NCBI GenBank assembly: GCA_030682385.1
Contig: JAUXOG010000077.1
Coordinates: 1-55,772, forward strand
DNA from: Bacteroidota bacterium
GTDB lineage: Bacteria; Bacteroidota; Ignavibacteria; UBA10030; BY39
Direction of reading: 5' to 3'
DNA length: 55,772 bases
The notes beneath the pieces were generated by a model. The model had not been told where the DNA came from, searched no databases, and saw nothing but the letters and a program-made list of their open reading frames with translations. Shown here piece after piece: positions 1,282 through 8,224 of the stretch. Position numbers and translations under genes: made by a program. Position 1 is the stretch's first letter, and each line of letters starts with the position of its first letter.

Positions 1282-2427
1282 TCATCTTTGCTCAAACAAC
1301 CTGCCTTTCAAATCTTTTGAGCTTGTAAAATTCTTCAATATATATTTGTCTATACCATCCATCCATCTTGTAATTTTTTCAGGATTTGTTTGTATCTCAA
1401 CTTCGTAAAACTCGCCTACTACCGATTTGATAAATTTCAAGCGAGCATAAAAGAAAATTACAAGCGCAGCAAAAAACCCTGCTGAAAAATACTGACCTAT
1501 GCCAAATAATTCCATATAACCTGCAAATTCTACGCTTTTTATAACAGCCCACTGGTGAAAAATATCTAAACTAAATATTACCAAAAAAACATACATCATT
1601 TTATCTATATAAGCACCTTGCGGTGGATCTTTCGCATATTGGTATCCGCAATATAACAAAATAAATAGAATAACAAAAACATCCATATAAATTATTTTAA
1701 AATAAAATGGCTGGTACAACAGAACCAACGAGCCATCATTTTTCGTATATGGGAGTAGTTTTTCAATTTGTTTTATATTGGCTTCAGCATAAAGCTGACC
1801 TACAACCTCGCCATCACTTATTGCAGGGAGTGTTACAAGTGCTGCGATTTCGGTTGCATTTGGTTCCCGATTATATTGGTTTATAAACTCTTCCCTTGTA
1901 TCTCTTATAATTCTATATTTTTGTATATTCTCTGTTGTGTAGATATATGGCTTCCCTACTGATTGGGGATTTTCTAAAAAAGGGTGATAATAGAAAAACG
2001 CAACCCCTAATACCACAGCAGCAGTAGCAAGATATTTTTGATAAATTTTAAAATTGTGGAATAACAAATCAAAGACTAAATAAGCAATTGCAAATGCCAA
2101 TGTTGTACTTAAAAATATATAAAGGTATTGGAATATGTAAACTGCACTAAATGCAGAATCAAAGAATAGATTGAAAAAGCCAAAATAATTAAAGATATAT
2201 AAAAAGGAATTGACGAAAAATAATGTAAAATTCAAAAATATAAATTTATGTTTCCTTGTCGGTTCATTAATAACGATAAATAAAGAAAAATAAAATAATA
2301 GAACCTGTATAGAAAGAGAAATTAGAATTGGAATTTCAGGAATACTCGCTTCTAAGAAAACAAAGCCGATAGCAAATAGAGACAGTGTTGCTATCCATAA
2401 TGTTAGAACTTTTTTTACCTGTTTCAT
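1282..2427 (-). CDS. 8-TM integral membrane protein, possible sensor
   Basis: 381-residue protein that I do not recognise. About eight hydrophobic helices are visible: five in the first ~150 residues, then a polar loop of ~75 residues (about 150-225), then three more. A ~60-residue cytoplasmic-looking tail follows, containing FYEVEIQTNPEKITRWMDGI. This layout resembles membrane input modules of sensor proteins, but no kinase or output domain is present. It sits directly upstream of the receiver-less AAA+ regulator in one probable operon, which makes it a candidate partner that transmits a signal to it. The start is ATG at 2427: a longer TTG-initiated frame from 2493 runs through the -35 and -10 boxes of a very good promoter and is therefore untranslated. 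Confidence 0.8.
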   Translation of the reverse strand: MKQVKKVLTLWIATLSLFAIGFVFLEASIPEIPILISLSIQVLLFYFSLFIVINEPTRKHKFIFLNFTLFFVNSFLYIFNYFGFFNLFFDSAFSAVYIFQYLYIFLSTTLAFAIAYLVFDLLFHNFKIYQKYLATAAVVLGVAFFYYHPFLENPQSVGKPYIYTTENIQKYRIIRDTREEFINQYNREPNATEIAALVTLPAISDGEVVGQLYAEANIKQIEKLLPYTKNDGSLVLLYQPFYFKIIYMDVFVILFILLYCGYQYAKDPPQGAYIDKMMYVFLVIFSLDIFHQWAVIKSVEFAGYMELFGIGQYFSAGFFAALVIFFYARLKFIKSVVGEFYEVEIQTNPEKITRWMDGIDKYILKNFTSSKDLKGRLFEQR

Positions 2428-2452
2428 AATTATCTTTTTATTTCTTGTGTTC

Positions 2453-2481
2453 AATATAATGAATAAAAGAGTAGGTGTCAA
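2453..2481 (-). promoter_or_regulatory. sigma-70-type promoter for the membrane protein/regulator operon
   Basis: Minus strand: TTGACA at 2476-2481, a 17-bp spacer and TATATT at 2453-2458. The predicted transcription start near 2446 gives a leader of about 18 bases before ATG 2427. Confidence 0.8.
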
Positions 2482-2512
2482 GTATTTTCGCAATTATTTT
2501 TTTATAAAATCA

Positions 2513-2536
2513 TTTAGTGTGATGCAAATCACTAAA
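2513..2536. promoter_or_regulatory. CRP/FNR-type operator in divergent intergenic region
   Basis: The sequence contains TGTGA-N6-TCACT (2518-2533), close to the CRP consensus TGTGA-N6-TCACA. It is also a perfect 7-bp dyad TTTAGTG / CACTAAA (2513-2519, 2530-2536). The centre lies about 80 bp upstream of the predicted start of the minus-strand operon, a usual distance for class I activation, and about 145 bp before the start codon of the repeat protein on the plus strand. Which regulator binds is unknown. Confidence 0.55.
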
Positions 2537-2669
2537 ATTAACACTGTTTTTTAAATCTTTTTTTTATCAAAAAAGTTGCGAAATTCCCTATATATTATTA
2601 AATTTTCATCAGAAAATTTGATTAGCATTTAACTTTAAAACAAAAAAATACACCAAAAGGAGATAAAAC

Positions 2670-2924
2670 ATGTTAACGAACCTTAAAAACAACCGGAATT
2701 TTAAACGTATCAGTTCTGTAATTCTTACATTAGCTATAGTATTAACTATAAATGGAGCTATTTCTTTCGCTGCGGGAGATACAAATAAAGCCACATCCCT
2801 TTATTCTATACCGAGAGACACGCCTCAGCCCAAAGCTACAGCCCTTTATTCGATACCGAAAAATACACCTCGACCCAAAGCTATAGCCCTTTATTCTATA
2901 CCGAAAGATACGCCTCAACCATAA
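2670..2924 (+). CDS. small secreted protein of three tandem 15-residue repeats
   Basis: 84-residue protein that I do not recognise. Residues 1 to about 34 form a signal peptide (basic start, hydrophobic core ending ISFAA). The rest is a short linker and three tandem copies of a 15-residue unit running exactly to the C-terminus (40-54, 55-69, 70-84). The consensus is K-A-T-A-L-Y-S-I-P-K-D-T-P-Q-P, with small changes. There is no cysteine, so it is neither disulfide-bonded nor a lipoprotein. An AAGGAG Shine-Dalgarno at 2657-2662 precedes the ATG with good spacing, and a strong terminator follows, so it is probably a single-gene transcript. The design resembles multicopy peptide precursors or proline-rich surface peptides. 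No function can be assigned from sequence. Confidence 0.75.
   Translation: MLTNLKNNRNFKRISSVILTLAIVLTINGAISFAAGDTNKATSLYSIPRDTPQPKATALYSIPKNTPRPKAIALYSIPKDTPQP
2787..2921 (+). repeat. three tandem 45-bp coding repeats
   Basis: Units at 2787-2831, 2832-2876 and 2877-2921, each encoding one 15-residue LYSIP peptide unit. The nucleotide copies differ at several positions, many of them silent, which suggests the peptide is under selection and the duplication is not very recent. Confidence 0.9.
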
Positions 2925-2946
2925 CTACAAACAAACTTGTTTTATC

Positions 2947-2990
2947 AGGACTTTGCCCCGCCCTGCGGGGCAAAGTCCTATTTTATTTCA
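2947..2990 (+). terminator. strong Rho-independent terminator
   Basis: 15-bp perfect stem AGGACTTTGCCCCGC / GCGGGGCAAAGTCCT with a CCT loop (2947-2979), followed by ATTTTATTT. It ends the transcript of the repeat protein and separates it from the M50 protease gene. Confidence 0.92.
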
Positions 2991-2993
2991 TCC

Positions 2994-3023
2994 AAATATT
3001 TGTTATTTTGAAAACAAATATTT
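2994..3023. repeat. inverted repeat upstream of the M50 protease gene
   Basis: Perfect 11-bp arms AAATATTTGTT / AACAAATATTT with an 8-base spacer. It is AT-only apart from one G/C pair per arm and lies just before, or within, the true 5' end of the protease gene. It could be an operator or a leader hairpin that hides a start site. Confidence 0.6.
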
Positions 3024-3104
3024 CAATACACATCTATCAAAAATTATTTACTACATAGTTTACTTTTTATAACCACTTTTTTTACAACAACGCTTGCCGG
3101 GGTA

Positions 3105-3956
3105 ATGTGGTTAAATCAAGATCCGTTTGATTTAAGCAATTTTTATACTGGGCTTCATTACTCAATCCCTCTTTTAGTTATACTCGCTGCACACGAGTTC
3201 GGCCATTATTTCGCAGCAAAATATCATAAAATTGAAACAACGCTGCCATACTTTATTCCAATCCCTCCTTTCTTGTTCAACCCTTTCGGCACAATGGGGG
3301 CGGTCATAAAAATTAAATCTCCCATCCCAACAAAAAAAGCCCTCTTCGATATCGGAAGTGCCGGACCGATTGCCGGTTTTATTGTTACAATTATAATTTT
3401 GATTTATGGATTAGTAAATTTACCACCTATTACATATCTATTTCAAATACATCCGGAATACGCGCTGAACGGAACGATTCCAACCAAAGGACTTTCATTT
3501 GGACACTCAATCCTGACATACACGATTCAGTCCCTATCAAATGATGCCGGTAACTTTCCCCCGATGAACGAAATTTACCACTATCCGTATCTTTGCGTAG
3601 CTTGGTTTGGTCTTTTTATTACAGCACTAAACTTAATTCCGGTCGGTCAACTCGATGGTGGGCATATTTTATACGCATTAATTGGAAAACATCAAGGGAT
3701 ATTTTCACGCATCTTTTTCGCTGCAATAATCATTATCGGTTTAACCAGCTTTATTCCTGATATGGGCTTCCACGCAGGAACTGTCGGATGGTTAGTTTTT
3801 GCCATTATACTTTTTTTCCTTATTAAACTTGACCATCCACCAATTTATGACGACACCCCTTTAGATCATAAAAGAAAAATCATCGGTTGGTTGGCTATTC
3901 TTATTTTTATTATTGCCTTCACACCAATTCCTTTTTATGAGTTGATTCCTTCATAA
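3105..3956 (+). CDS. M50-family site-2-type intramembrane metalloprotease (N-terminus probably incomplete)
   Basis: Polytopic membrane zinc protease of the SpoIVFB/RseP/Eep superfamily that cleaves membrane-embedded substrates. The zinc site HEFGH is at residues 30-34 and the second metal-binding motif N-L-I-P-V-G-Q-L-D-G-G-H at about 176-187. There are six or so hydrophobic segments and no PDZ domain. The frame stays open upstream of this first ATG back to a stop at 3009-3011, and that stretch encodes a typical first helix of the family (LLFITTFFTTTLAG) but has no ATG, GTG or TTG. Either an ATA/ATC/ATT start is used, or the frame is joined from a TTG at 3008 by a 1-base slip in an A5 run (3039-3043). 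The family call is firm; the start is not. Confidence 0.9.
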   Translation: MWLNQDPFDLSNFYTGLHYSIPLLVILAAHEFGHYFAAKYHKIETTLPYFIPIPPFLFNPFGTMGAVIKIKSPIPTKKALFDIGSAGPIAGFIVTIIILIYGLVNLPPITYLFQIHPEYALNGTIPTKGLSFGHSILTYTIQSLSNDAGNFPPMNEIYHYPYLCVAWFGLFITALNLIPVGQLDGGHILYALIGKHQGIFSRIFFAAIIIIGLTSFIPDMGFHAGTVGWLVFAIILFFLIKLDHPPIYDDTPLDHKRKIIGWLAILIFIIAFTPIPFYELIPS

Positions 3957-4001: not shown

Positions 4002-4841
4002 ATGCAAAGATATTTATTTCTAATAATTCTAATAATTCCATTGCTTTCTGCATGTGATAATGATAAATATGGATCATTCGATATCAGTTTATCAGTCCCT
4101 TTCATTTCACAAGCAAAGTTAGCATACTATAACATAGATTCTGATACGATCAAACCGGGGAATCAATTCTCATTAGCCGATACCATAACAATACAAAACC
4201 GGGTATCAGCACATATTTCCGACAAGGATGGTTTGATTGATTTAAAGAACGTTAAATTTATCATTTACCTCCCCGAAAGTAATAAGCCGGTCAGTCAAGG
4301 GTATCTATACGATAATGGACAAGAAGCCGATTCTATAGCCGGTGATGGAATTTTTTCCGGCGTAATTTCTTTTAAAATTTCACGCGTCATAGTTGGTAAT
4401 TTCATTGTTGAACTTCAAGCTGAGGATAAAAGCCAATTATTAAGTAACGTATTCTCGACATCCTTTAGAATCAGCAGAATGGGAAAACCCCCTATTATTT
4501 TCGATTTAAAAGCTCCTGAAAACACCACACTTCCTACATTGGGCGAAAAAGTTATCCTAATGAGTGTTGCCGCCTTTGATACTAACGGCTACAATGATAT
4601 TAAGGAAGTTTATTTCCGAAGCCTAGATTCGTCAGACCCTACACGAAAATTCTTCCTATTAGATAACGGTAACATTTCCACGAGTGGTGATTCCATTGCG
4701 AACGACGGAATCTTTTCAATTTTAGTAAAGCTTCCTTTTAACATGACACCTAAGTCATACCGCTTTGAGTTTGAAGCCAAGGATTATACCGAATTATTAA
4801 GCAACAAAATTCTTCACACATTAACTGTTACTCAACCTTGA
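4002..4841 (+). CDS. lipoprotein with two Ig-like/Ca-site-like repeats
   Basis: 279-residue exported lipoprotein; the signal peptide ends in the lipobox LSAC (Cys at about residue 18). The body has two copies of a beta-rich domain of roughly 110-120 residues, each with a similar acidic loop: D-N-G-x-x-x-D-S-I-A-G-D-G-I-F-S in the first and D-N-G-N-x-S-x-x-G-D-S-I-A-N-D-G-I-F-S in the second. Such D-rich loops often bind calcium. No enzyme motif is visible. It is the first gene of an envelope operon and its stop overlaps the TTG start of the propeller gene, suggesting translational coupling. Likely an envelope structural or adaptor protein. Confidence 0.75.
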   Translation: MQRYLFLIILIIPLLSACDNDKYGSFDISLSVPFISQAKLAYYNIDSDTIKPGNQFSLADTITIQNRVSAHISDKDGLIDLKNVKFIIYLPESNKPVSQGYLYDNGQEADSIAGDGIFSGVISFKISRVIVGNFIVELQAEDKSQLLSNVFSTSFRISRMGKPPIIFDLKAPENTTLPTLGEKVILMSVAAFDTNGYNDIKEVYFRSLDSSDPTRKFFLLDNGNISTSGDSIANDGIFSILVKLPFNMTPKSYRFEFEAKDYTELLSNKILHTLTVTQP

Positions 4842-6370
4842 AAAACATCAATCTCATTTTATATATTTTCATATTTATTTTGGGAATCCATTCGCTCAAC
4901 TCCCAAACAATTTATCCTAAATATTTTCAACTCGAAAATAATTCGACCGAACAAACCCAACCCCCTAGTAACAGCGTATCGCAGATTGCTGTAGCGGATT
5001 CAATTTTTTGGATCGGGACGAGCAGCGGATTAGCTAAATCTACGAACCTCGGTAACAGTTGGTCTGCATACAATCAATTTTTAGAATTCCCCCACCCCGG
5101 TATTTACTCTCTAAATGTTGAAAGAGATACTATATGGACTTCAACAGGATATACCAAGAAAAAGGATAACGAGAAAATCGCTACCGGTGGCGGCTATACA
5201 TTTTCGACCAACAGCGGCTTGAGTTGGAATTACGTAAATCAAACTTTAGATTCGAGAGGCGATTCAACAATTGTTTACGGAATAAATAACATCCGAATTC
5301 TCCCTGTTATTGTTCCCGAACAAAATGTAACTTACGATATCTCCCTCGCTCCCGGCAAAGTTTGGATTGCAAGCTGGGCAAGCGGACTCAGATATACTAC
5401 TAATAATGGAATCAATTGGAATCGAGTTGTTCTACCACCTGATAACATGAGCAGTATTAAGCCAACTGATACTCTAAATTTTTATTACGACCCACGTAAA
5501 AATAATAACTTCCTTGCCTTCTCAGTTTTGGCAATCGATAACGATACAATTTGGTGTGGAACTGCCGGCGGAATTAATAAATCGACCGACGGCGGAATCA
5601 GTTGGCGAAGATTCACATCGCAGAATCAAGATTCCCCGATTCTAGGTAATTGGGTTATCACTATCAAAGCTCAGCGATACCAAAACAAAGTAAGAATTTG
5701 GACTACTAATTGGTTGGCAGGCACTAATGAAACGAACGGCGTTAGTTACAGCGATGATGGCGGTAATAGTTGGATAAATATCTTAAAAGGAATAAAAGCT
5801 TATGATTTTGCTTTTAAAGATTCCATCGCTTACATCGCCACCGAGCAAGGAATTTATAGAACGGATGACGGCGGCAAAACTTTAAACCGCTCATATCTGA
5901 TTACGGAACCTCAGAACCGGCAAGCCATTACATCTTCCTCCGTATTTTCAGTTGGAGTTATTGGCGATAATGTTTTAATAGGTACCGGCGATGGTATGGC
6001 GATAACATCTGATAATGAAGAAAATACTTTTGGCGCCCAATGGAAAATCTTAAGAAAATATGAACCCATCGGAACCAAATTTCTTTCATACGCTTATCCG
6101 AATCCCTTTGCAGCAAGGTCTGAATTCACGCGAATTCATTACAGCACTTATGGAAGTAATGCGGTTGTCTCTATCGAAATTTTTGATTTCGGTATGAATC
6201 GAGTGCGCACTTTGATCCAAAATGCTAACAGATCGGGTGTAACCGAATATGACGAAATTTGGGATGGAAAAAATGATGACGGTAATTATGTCGCTAATGG
6301 AGTCTATTTTTACAGAGTCCAGATAAATAACACCGAACCGATTTGGGCAAAAATAATGGTTTTACAATAA
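4838..6370 (+). CDS. secreted Asp-box (BNR-like) propeller with FlgD-like C-terminal domain
   Basis: 510-residue exported protein with a TTG start overlapping the preceding stop; signal peptide of about 22 residues ending NSQ. Residues ~40-400 carry repeated Asp-box motifs, for example STDGGISW, SDDGGNSW, TNNGINW and TNSGLSW, which mark a sialidase/Vps10-like beta-propeller. The last ~95 residues are a FlgD-like Ig domain: YPNPF at its start, WDGKNDDGNYVANGVYFYR near its end. In FCB bacteria this type of terminal domain is common on proteins exported through the outer membrane and can serve as a secretion signal. The two following genes encode PorV-like barrels, a family linked to that export. 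No catalytic residues were identified, so substrate or binding role is unknown. Confidence 0.82.
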   Translation: MKNINLILYIFIFILGIHSLNSQTIYPKYFQLENNSTEQTQPPSNSVSQIAVADSIFWIGTSSGLAKSTNLGNSWSAYNQFLEFPHPGIYSLNVERDTIWTSTGYTKKKDNEKIATGGGYTFSTNSGLSWNYVNQTLDSRGDSTIVYGINNIRILPVIVPEQNVTYDISLAPGKVWIASWASGLRYTTNNGINWNRVVLPPDNMSSIKPTDTLNFYYDPRKNNNFLAFSVLAIDNDTIWCGTAGGINKSTDGGISWRRFTSQNQDSPILGNWVITIKAQRYQNKVRIWTTNWLAGTNETNGVSYSDDGGNSWINILKGIKAYDFAFKDSIAYIATEQGIYRTDDGGKTLNRSYLITEPQNRQAITSSSVFSVGVIGDNVLIGTGDGMAITSDNEENTFGAQWKILRKYEPIGTKFLSYAYPNPFAARSEFTRIHYSTYGSNAVVSIEIFDFGMNRVRTLIQNANRSGVTEYDEIWDGKNDDGNYVANGVYFYRVQINNTEPIWAKIMVLQ

Positions 6371-6376
6371 TTGATT

Positions 6377-7327
6377 ATGAAAAATTTTACAAAAATAGGG
6401 GTTAGTATCATCCTTTTGCTGAATTGGTCAATACTTGAAGCTCAAATTGGTGGTACAGCCGGTTCGTTTGCCAGAATGGGTTTTGGGGCAAGAGGTATGA
6501 GTATGGGTAATGCAGTCTCTGCAATTACTACCGGCGATATTAACTCATACTATAATCCTGCTCTGATTCCTTTTGCCGAACATAGAACTGCAAGTATTAC
6601 ATACTCGTTTTTGTCGTTCGATAGATATCTAAATTTTTTGAGCTACGGACAAGCAGTCCAACCGACTGCAGGAATTTCATTTGGCATTATCAATGCAGGT
6701 GTAGGTGATATTGAGGAACGAAATTCGGATGGAATAAAAATAAGAACAATTTCCACTTCCGAAAATATGTTCTTTCTATCATTCGCGAACCGTATCCATA
6801 ATAATGTATCGATAGGTGTCTCGGTAAAGATGTTTTATCATAAATTGTACGAAGAAGTCAGTTCTACAACGGTCGGTTTTGATATTGGTATGTTAATACA
6901 AGCTGCTAAAAATATCTCAGTTGGTATCACACTCCAGGATATTAACTCTAAATACAAATGGGATACAAATCCAATTTATGGACGTGGGCGCCAGACCGAC
7001 GATGTATTCCCAATCCTTCGCCGTATTTCGGTAGCTTACCAACTCCCGAACAGTTTAGGGATAGTCGCCGCTGAATTCGAAAATTCTTCTGTAAAAACAA
7101 ATCACTTGCGTTTTGGAACTGAAATTATTTTGCATCCTTCTTTTATAATCCGAACCGGTGTCGATAGATGGAATTTGAGTAATAACTACTCAGGTCTGAA
7201 ACCGACTTTCGGATATTCTATTCAAGGCGATTTCGATGGCTGGACTCCGGCTCTCGATTATAGTTACGTTATAGAACCATTCGCAACCAACAACATGCAC
7301 ATAATCACTTTATCAATAAAATTTTAA
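6377..7327 (+). CDS. PorV/PorQ-like (UPF0164) outer-membrane beta-barrel protein
   Basis: 316-residue predicted barrel. Signal peptide ends ILEAQ. The mature start has the family features GTAGSFARMGFGARGMSMGN followed by a NPAL-type motif (YYNPALIP), typical of FadL-like PorV/UPF0164 proteins. Alternating hydrophobic strands run to the end and the last residue is Phe, as expected for assembly by the BAM complex. An in-frame TTG two codons upstream exists, but ATG at 6377 is the better start. PorV proteins act as shuttle or scaffold in type IX-like export; here the role probably concerns the FlgD-domain protein encoded just upstream. No core secretion genes lie nearby. Confidence 0.82.
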   Translation: MKNFTKIGVSIILLLNWSILEAQIGGTAGSFARMGFGARGMSMGNAVSAITTGDINSYYNPALIPFAEHRTASITYSFLSFDRYLNFLSYGQAVQPTAGISFGIINAGVGDIEERNSDGIKIRTISTSENMFFLSFANRIHNNVSIGVSVKMFYHKLYEEVSSTTVGFDIGMLIQAAKNISVGITLQDINSKYKWDTNPIYGRGRQTDDVFPILRRISVAYQLPNSLGIVAAEFENSSVKTNHLRFGTEIILHPSFIIRTGVDRWNLSNNYSGLKPTFGYSIQGDFDGWTPALDYSYVIEPFATNNMHIITLSIKF

Positions 7328-7330
7328 TTT

Positions 7331-8224
7331 ATGAAACCGATATTTATTTTTTTAATTCTCATATTTTTAATTCAAACTGCTTATCCACAACCCGGGACTA
7401 CCGGTTTGTCGTTTTTGAAAACCGGAATAAGTCCAAGAGCAATTGCGATGGGAGATGTATATCCAATCGAGAAAGCCGACCCTGCAGCAGTTTATTATAA
7501 TTCTGCGTTTTTGTCGCTTACGAATCAGACACAAGTAGTTTTTGTTCATAGAGAATGGATAAAAGATACACGAACTGAGTTTTTAGGATTTTCCACTATG
7601 TTGGATAACTTCCGGTTCGCATTTGGTGTCAATTCAACGAGCATAATCGACATTGAACAAAGAACTATTCCCGGCGATCCAGAGGGAACTTTCACTTCGC
7701 GCAACGCAGCATTAAGTTTTACAACCGCTTATCTTCTTAACAATCTGAACTTCGGTATAAGTGGAAAATACTTATATGAAAAAATATTAATCGACGAAGC
7801 GTCGGGTTATGCATTCGATTTGGGTTTACTTTACAAAGATTTGTATGGATTCAACTTGGGGTTTTCAGTTAGCAACTTAGGATCAATGAACAAACTCCGG
7901 AATGAATCATCTACCCTGCCTGTAATTTCTCGATTTGGTGTTAGTCGCATAATTGATTTTGAAAACTTTGATGCGTTAATAATTCCTGCTGCTGATTTCG
8001 TTACAATTACTAATGAGAAAAAAAGCCACCTCCATTTAGGAATCGAGATGACATATAAAAATACGGTTTCAATCCGCACCGGAATACGGACAGGTTATGA
8101 GGCAAGTTTTTTCACTGCGGGAGTTGGTGCACGATATAGTATATTGGCTTTCGATTACGCATTTGCCCCTTTTATGTATGAATTAGGACCGACCCATAGT
8201 TTTTCGATTTCAATCATATTATGA
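7331..8224 (+). CDS. second PorV/PorQ-like (UPF0164) barrel protein
   Basis: 297-residue predicted barrel, paralogous to the preceding gene product and starting 3 bp after it. Signal peptide ends AYPQP; then GTTGLSFLKTGISPRAIAMGD and the aligned YYNSAFLS motif where family members have NPA. Strands alternate to a C-terminal SISIIL. Its stop overlaps the next ATG (ATGA). Two tandem copies of this family in one operon suggest distinct clients or a heteromeric arrangement. The assignment rests on fold-family features, not on an experimentally known member. Confidence 0.8.
   Translation: MKPIFIFLILIFLIQTAYPQPGTTGLSFLKTGISPRAIAMGDVYPIEKADPAAVYYNSAFLSLTNQTQVVFVHREWIKDTRTEFLGFSTMLDNFRFAFGVNSTSIIDIEQRTIPGDPEGTFTSRNAALSFTTAYLLNNLNFGISGKYLYEKILIDEASGYAFDLGLLYKDLYGFNLGFSVSNLGSMNKLRNESSTLPVISRFGVSRIIDFENFDALIIPAADFVTITNEKKSHLHLGIEMTYKNTVSIRTGIRTGYEASFFTAGVGARYSILAFDYAFAPFMYELGPTHSFSISIIL

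Follow-up and report, generated by a model that had tools for sequence, protein, structure and literature searches.

The open reading frame at 2670-2924 of the window, by which we mean the whole stretch of 55,772 nucleotides analysed here, probably encodes a multi-copy secreted precursor of a signal peptide, which would be sensed by the membrane protein encoded divergently from it and relayed to the adjacent regulator. The precursor and its conserved gene module are well supported. All our evidence is genomic: it provides the precursor, its selection regime, the module and the duplication of this module, whereas the sites of cleavage, the passage of the peptide beyond the outer membrane, ligand-receptor binding and regulatory output are inferred, in the absence of expression, processing or binding data. 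The contig comes from an Ignavibacteria-type genome, and its module-bearing relatives are MAGs whose titles read Ignavibacteriae, Ignavibacteria, Chlorobi or Bacteroidetes. The elements of the precursor gene are the following:

2518-2533, + strand: CRP/FNR-like dyad TGTGATGCAAATCACT in the divergent promoter region (match to TGTGA-N6-TCACA)
2657-2662, + strand: strong ribosome binding site AAGGAG (sequence; AAGGAGAT is kept in the alignment of upstream regions)
2670-2924, + strand: multi-copy secreted peptide precursor, 84 residues (84-codon open reading frame and its translation; profile homologues)
2670-2771, + strand: signal-peptide region, 34 residues, with an Asn in its hydrophobic core and ending in ISFA (14-member alignment)
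2787-2831, + strand: peptide unit 1, KATSLYSIPRDTPQP (DNA repeat and repeat scoring)
2832-2876, + strand: peptide unit 2, KATALYSIPKNTPRP (DNA repeat and repeat scoring)
2877-2921, + strand: peptide unit 3, KAIALYSIPKDTPQP, with the stop codon directly 3' (DNA repeat and repeat scoring)
2947-2979, + strand: intrinsic terminator of the precursor gene (15-pair stem with 10 GC pairs, then ATTTTATTTC)

The precursor thus reads MLTNLKNNRNFKRISSVILTLAIVLTINGAISFA, AGDTN, KATSLYSIPRDTPQP, KATALYSIPKNTPRP, KAIALYSIPKDTPQP and stop, the unit boundaries being assigned by eye. At the DNA level the copies start at 2787, 2832 and 2877, with a 45-nucleotide spacing and 80-86% identity, and the mature part obtained a repeat score of 21, against a maximum of 11 over 20,000 shuffles. 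The three tandem 15-residue units ending at the C-terminus, which an earlier note on this DNA had proposed, are borne out by the translation, the spacing and this score, and its description of each unit as starting with Lys and carrying LYSIP is exact. In the 14 aligned members, residues N28 and S32 of the signal region are invariant and I31 is kept in at least 90%; cleavage of the signal is inferred after A34. Because a strong ribosome binding site is found 5' of the gene and a strong terminator 3' of it, the precursor is probably expressed as a separate transcript. The dyad matches TGTGA-N6-TCACA at 9 of 10 positions, a score equalled by 2 of 200 shuffles, and a GTGA-N6-TCAC dyad of the CRP/FNR type is also conserved in the divergent promoter region of other f1/f2 genomes. 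Beside it, in the region corresponding to 2485-2600 of the window, a TGTCAAG-N5-TCGCAA element is conserved in the f1/f2 genomes.

Homologues were detected by a protein search over 60 relatives and then by running a profile against 98 genomes of the order. The single window protein had no match when compared to contigs, and whole-genome and profile searches were needed. Precursor homologues were recovered in 40 of the 98 genomes, in five families. The earlier note had suggested looking in related genomes for the signal peptide together with the repeats and for variation in copy number; the latter does vary, from 1 to 9 units per precursor. The signal region is conserved across the family and its hydrophobic-core Asn is invariant in the aligned members, while the repeat unit differs between genera and is near-identical within one gene. 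Units are 12-15 residues long and proline-rich, and many fit the pattern [S/A]-G-x4-P-D-S-P-[R/K]-P. Examples are arrays with four copies of SGIPILPDSPKP, STVPLLPDSPRP or SGVAHMPDSPRP, three of TAATYMYPKDTPKP, seven of ASGTTSNPLPPPP and nine of SGGPIAPSDIPRP. Units were counted with exact regex patterns, which could hide diverged copies; since what remains as linkers and tails is short, few copies should have been missed. Members found in another order of the class have one unit and a charged tail (ASGNSMLPDSPDP). Copy number thus runs from 1 to 9 with these single-unit members included, and the single unit is the functional element. The precursor falls in no Pfam or NCBIfam family, as the earlier note had supposed when it could name none, and neither does the membrane protein; the Pfam matches of the precursor to HTH_psq and FH1 are weak, below cut-off or limited to a single member, and reflect composition.

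Some loci depart from the one-gene arrangement. One genome (G013) contains a second small, unrelated-looking gene with one copy of the array unit SGVMNIPDPPRP. At two loci (L065 and L093) the precursor genes are tandemly duplicated, and in G050 one of two duplicated precursors has a changed unit (SGPTAPPPPIP versus SGPTAPEPPRP).

Of the 41 multi-copy genes, 33 encode units that do not differ in a single amino acid. Pooled over these 41 genes, the between-copy pS was 0.50 and the pN 0.025, a ratio of 0.05. Copies that differ at about half of their synonymous sites and yet give identical peptides indicate selection on the single peptide; as far as codon comparisons can tell, it is selection that keeps the individual copies identical. 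Recent DNA duplication or gene conversion was rejected as the cause of this identity, since either would erase the synonymous differences too. Judged on the same comparisons, the family has cleaner members than the window, whose own three copies differ: they are less uniform (pS 0.35, pN 0.11, pN/pS about 0.3), with NG86 dN/dS of about 0.2-0.3 (0.13/0.61, 0.09/0.48 and 0.10/0.31). At these values the observation that the nucleotide copies had diverged at silent sites while the peptide stayed similar still stands, and a dN/dS near 1 between repeats, named beforehand as a possible refutation, is not what we find.

These figures also bear on two simpler explanations. That the locus would be a mere DNA- or RNA-level repeat, or a spurious open reading frame, finds some support in the tandem 45-nucleotide DNA repeats and can practically be dismissed: the copies differ at synonymous sites with the peptide kept, a pN/pS of 0.05 contradicts it, and reading frame, start and stop are conserved in 40 genomes. 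A small proline-rich repeat protein with a structural role at the cell surface would likewise be secreted, proline-rich and repetitive; it is nevertheless very improbable given the tiny size of the protein, the single-copy members, the near-perfect copy identity under selection and the obligate association with a membrane protein and a regulator described below. The proline-rich surface peptide that the earlier note had kept as an alternative accounts less well for the signal region, the variation in copy number, the change of unit between genera with identity of the copies within a gene, and the linkers and array ends described next.

The arrays themselves contain clues to processing. In several genomes nothing separates the signal sequence from the first unit (AISYA/SGIPILPDSPKP, LISFA/STIPLLPDSPKP), which makes the unit boundary visible, as in AISYA/SGIPILPDSPKP/K/SGIPILPDSPKP. 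Most linkers consist of one K alone or of a short stretch with K/R as its last residue (K/R is last in 77 of 105), and the end of the array coincides exactly with the stop codon in 32 of 43 arrays. When K/R occurs within units it precedes Pro in 46 of 52 cases, a context resistant to trypsin-like cleavage, although this count is largely that of the conserved PRP/PKP ending. In family f4 the linkers end in L, I or F and not in K/R (TL, AL, ETFI, SKTF), so that one protease cannot explain all members and the f4 protease must differ. An export signal, tandem near-identical short peptides and cleavable linkers, as expected of a multi-copy secreted precursor, are all present. The idea of a multicopy peptide precursor is therefore upheld by the conserved signal region, the 1-9 copies, the K/R linkers and the arrays usually ending at the stop, and by a unit that changes between genera and remains identical within a gene despite synonymous divergence; its pheromone function is inferred.

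The precursor gene belongs to a conserved neighbourhood, which could not be seen in the earlier note, nor could the single-copy members. In the window its other genes are:

211-1248, - strand: AAA+/Fis-HTH regulator, after the membrane-protein gene on the same strand (Pfam Sigma54_activat and HTH_8)
1282-2427, - strand: candidate peptide receptor, a 381-residue membrane protein with eight helices (synteny, co-occurrence, AlphaFold and positive-inside topology)
3105-3956, + strand: M50 (site-2 protease) gene, downstream, a possible processing enzyme, the link not being shown (Pfam Peptidase_M50, 3.8e-20)

In 38 loci the precursor is divergent to a membrane protein of about 380 residues, which is followed by an AAA+/Fis-type regulator. 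The membrane protein is present in all 40 precursor genomes and absent in 53 of the 58 genomes without precursor, the five exceptions corresponding to contig-edge, partial or paralogue-only matches (Fisher p 2e-22, with no correction for phylogeny and ignoring the shared location). The M50 gene is a conserved neighbour in 35 loci. It persists with its own neighbour in five genomes in which no regulator or membrane protein lies beside them (G006, G007, G014, G027 and G037), from which we delimit the module to precursor, membrane protein and regulator. This retention where the module is missing weakens a dedicated role of the M50 protein; based on adjacency only, it is a possible maturation enzyme of the precursor. 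A sixth apparently module-less genome, G017, has a contig that begins inside a precursor array. Some apparent absences are thus assembly breaks and, contigs often breaking at repeat arrays, the absence of the module is overestimated in fragmented MAGs. Contig ends at or near the array or the membrane-protein gene are common (positions 1-190 of L198; L173, L174, L204-L206). As to absence in close relatives, which the earlier note would have taken as a refutation, the precursor is present in two genomes of the same family; in G001, the sole other genome of the same genus, no precursor, membrane protein or M50 gene was detectable. At 4002-8224 of the window lies a block of secretion-related genes, encoding a choice_anch_X protein, a FlgD_ig/T9SS-tail protein and two PorV/TraF_2-like outer-membrane proteins, and this block adjoins the module across much of the order.

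The module has also been duplicated. Each of four paralogues of the membrane protein (L166, TM 2177-3244; L169; L170; L171) faces a divergent gene of its own for a small secreted proline-rich protein, with one C-terminal proline-rich stretch such as DPFPPPPPPPQPVK or DPTEPPPPPPPPIK, and the paralogues keep the adjacent regulator gene. We consider this repeated pairing of a paralogue with a secreted protein as the best evidence for a putative ligand-receptor relation, for which no binding data exist. Beside four other paralogues, of family f6 (L162, L163, L164 and L165), no precursor was visible; they may be orphan or eavesdropping receptors. These four adjoin a regulator where the contig allows. 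In L167 and L168 two membrane-protein paralogues are found in tandem beside one regulator.

The composition of the module and of the units was weighed against another function, that of a multi-copy proline-rich bacteriocin or antimicrobial (an apidaecin-like precursor), with the membrane protein providing immunity or target recognition. Multiple copies, proline-rich units containing PRP and fast divergence between lineages would suit such a peptide. We hold it to be unlikely because typical units are near neutral by inspection (SGVPVIPDSPRP has one Arg and one Asp), most having one Arg/Lys and often one acidic residue, and are not strongly cationic. Moreover, no transporter and, beyond generic AAA+/HTH matches, no PADLOC defence gene was identified in the module, in which the partner of the membrane protein is a regulator of transcription.

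The membrane protein could start further upstream, as a longer TTG-start open reading frame would reach 2493. In AlphaFold models of two members (pLDDT 83 and 87) the protein has eight membrane helices, the fifth and sixth of which flank an extracytoplasmic domain; loops on the inner side are marked by basic residues, in agreement with a positive-inside topology. This topology places outside the extracytoplasmic domain, which is less conserved than the remainder of the protein, and inside most of the invariant residues, found in a cytoplasmic loop (DPPQGAY) and in the tail (GEFYE..RWRD). No Pfam 7TM family was detected in 23 members at E up to 1, no PDB entry matched by sequence, and a sample of 395 genomes spanning the phylum gave no relative outside the class. 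The protein is not a histidine kinase of the Agr/ComD type, having no Pfam domain and a tail of about 50 residues. Helices 2-8 aligned to GPCRs with Z values of up to 14.5 in one model (227 residues aligned, rmsd 4.4) and up to 14.8 in the other (212 residues aligned, rmsd 3.5). The structural matches listed were all GPCRs or a designed GPCR-like fold, with an orientation consistent with GPCRs. The candidates had been chosen by Foldseek, whose E values for the GPCR-like matches, 0.19 and 0.056, fall short of significance, and helical bundles can reach such Z values by chance. A GPCR-like arrangement of helices 2-8 is thus only suggested by the models.

We also compared the distances between peptides with those between partner proteins. 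Peptide distance was correlated with that of the helical part when the regulator was controlled for (r 0.27, p 0.0045, n 35), most strongly for helices 1-2 (r 0.34, p 0.0005, n 35). The large extracytoplasmic domain, for which covariation had been expected beforehand, did not covary (r 0.10, p 0.17), so that the site at which the peptide would bind is unknown. The apparent covariation is modest, and it comes from partial Mantel tests, which can be liberal, on several segments.

The regulator is PspF-like and contains the sigma-54 activator domains (PF00158, 4e-31; PF02954, 2e-13). The GAFTGA motif, which makes the sigma-54 contact (PMC7175178), is absent in 45 of 45 aligned sequences of the regulator family, its place being taken for example by GTKGAV in the window or by GVEGLP elsewhere, and Walker B is mostly EE, not DE, in the same alignment. 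Action through sigma-54 was considered for the regulator and rejected: although RpoN is present in the genome, GAFTGA is missing and no exact match to the -24/-12 consensus was found in the genome. It is known that bEBPs without GAFTGA regulate sigma-70 promoters (PMC10274813), and the regulator, its output being inferred, probably acts at ordinary rather than sigma-54 promoters. Like the GAFTGA-less NtrC of Caulobacter and Rhodobacter and VspR, it combines an AAA+ domain and an HTH without the sigma-54-contacting motif; unlike them, it has no receiver domain, is paired with a membrane protein and has an EE Walker B in most members.

We propose that the precursor would be exported by Sec and that cleavage of its post-signal part at single basic residues, in the window lineage Lys, would yield identical or near-identical proline-rich peptides of 12-15 residues, approximately ATSLYSIPRDTPQP for the window. 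The peptide would bind to the extracytoplasmic face of the divergent eight-helix membrane protein and so be sensed by it, and the conserved cytoplasmic loop and tail of this protein would then control the adjacent AAA+/Fis-type regulator. Multiple copies would raise the yield per translation, and the change of unit between lineages would provide specificity. Several points count against a signal: passage of a peptide of about 1.3 kDa across the outer membrane is not shown and action in the periplasm only is possible, the f6 paralogues have no visible precursor, the f4 linkers lack K/R and the extracytoplasmic domain does not covary. The peptide might accordingly stay in the periplasm and report to the cell itself on secretion, periplasmic proteolysis or outer-membrane integrity, rather than to other cells. 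We judge this rather doubtful, though not negligible: the envelope is Gram-negative, no exporter gene is seen beside the precursor, and an M50 protease and T9SS/outer-membrane-type genes adjoin it, but the lineage-specific joint change of all copies better fits the specificity of a signal, and a generic sensor would not need such change.

What is known of multi-copy pheromone precursors comes chiefly from Bacillota and fungi. Fungal alpha-factor-type precursors have a signal sequence, tandem identical peptides that are species-specific, basic-residue separators and a multi-helix membrane receptor. The system described here resembles them, with their G-protein-coupled receptors, by its tandem species-specific peptides and its multi-helix membrane protein; it differs in being bacterial, in linkers that are usually a single K/R and in an output that would be the neighbouring transcription regulator and not a G protein. 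No sequence relation to the fungal system was detectable in Pfam and PDB searches. Like the RRNPPA systems of Bacillota (Rap-Phr, PlcR-PapR, NprR-NprX, AimR-AimP), it has a short Sec-exported propeptide encoded beside a receptor gene. RRNPPA propeptides may carry the mature peptide as many as six times (PMC9765709), and tandem propeptide units are processed by extracellular proteases (PMC11343458). RRNPPA receptors are cytoplasmic TPR proteins and their peptides are re-imported, whereas the present module has a polytopic membrane protein and an AAA+/Fis regulator, units of 12-15 residues and multiple identical copies as the rule. No TPR receptor was found beside the precursor, whose neighbours in the window are the AAA+/HTH, membrane-protein and M50 genes, as at other loci. 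S2Ps (M50) mature peptide pheromones in Gram-positives (PMC10202637), and as in the Eep/site-2-protease-dependent sex pheromones of Enterococcus and relatives an M50 gene adjoins the precursor gene; those pheromones derive from lipoprotein signal peptides, whereas the present peptide lies downstream of the signal peptide, and here genomes that lack the module still retain the M50 gene. The present system therefore works like known multi-copy propeptides without being a member of them, since its receptor and regulator families and its lineage are others. Our literature search found no described system of this kind in the open literature and no peptide pheromone described for the Ignavibacteria-type lineage.

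That a receptor of GPCR-like architecture senses a species-specific multi-copy peptide and signals without a kinase straight to an AAA+/Fis regulator remains a tentative idea, for which we see less than even chances. If true, both the receptor class and the signalling logic would be undescribed in bacteria; a GPCR-like bacterial peptide receptor, which is not shown, would be categorically new, and a membrane protein without known family whose models resemble GPCRs would bear on the origin of such receptors. The module forms a compact, testable set of ligand, receptor and regulator with dozens of natural ligand variants, in which specificity and coevolution could be studied directly.
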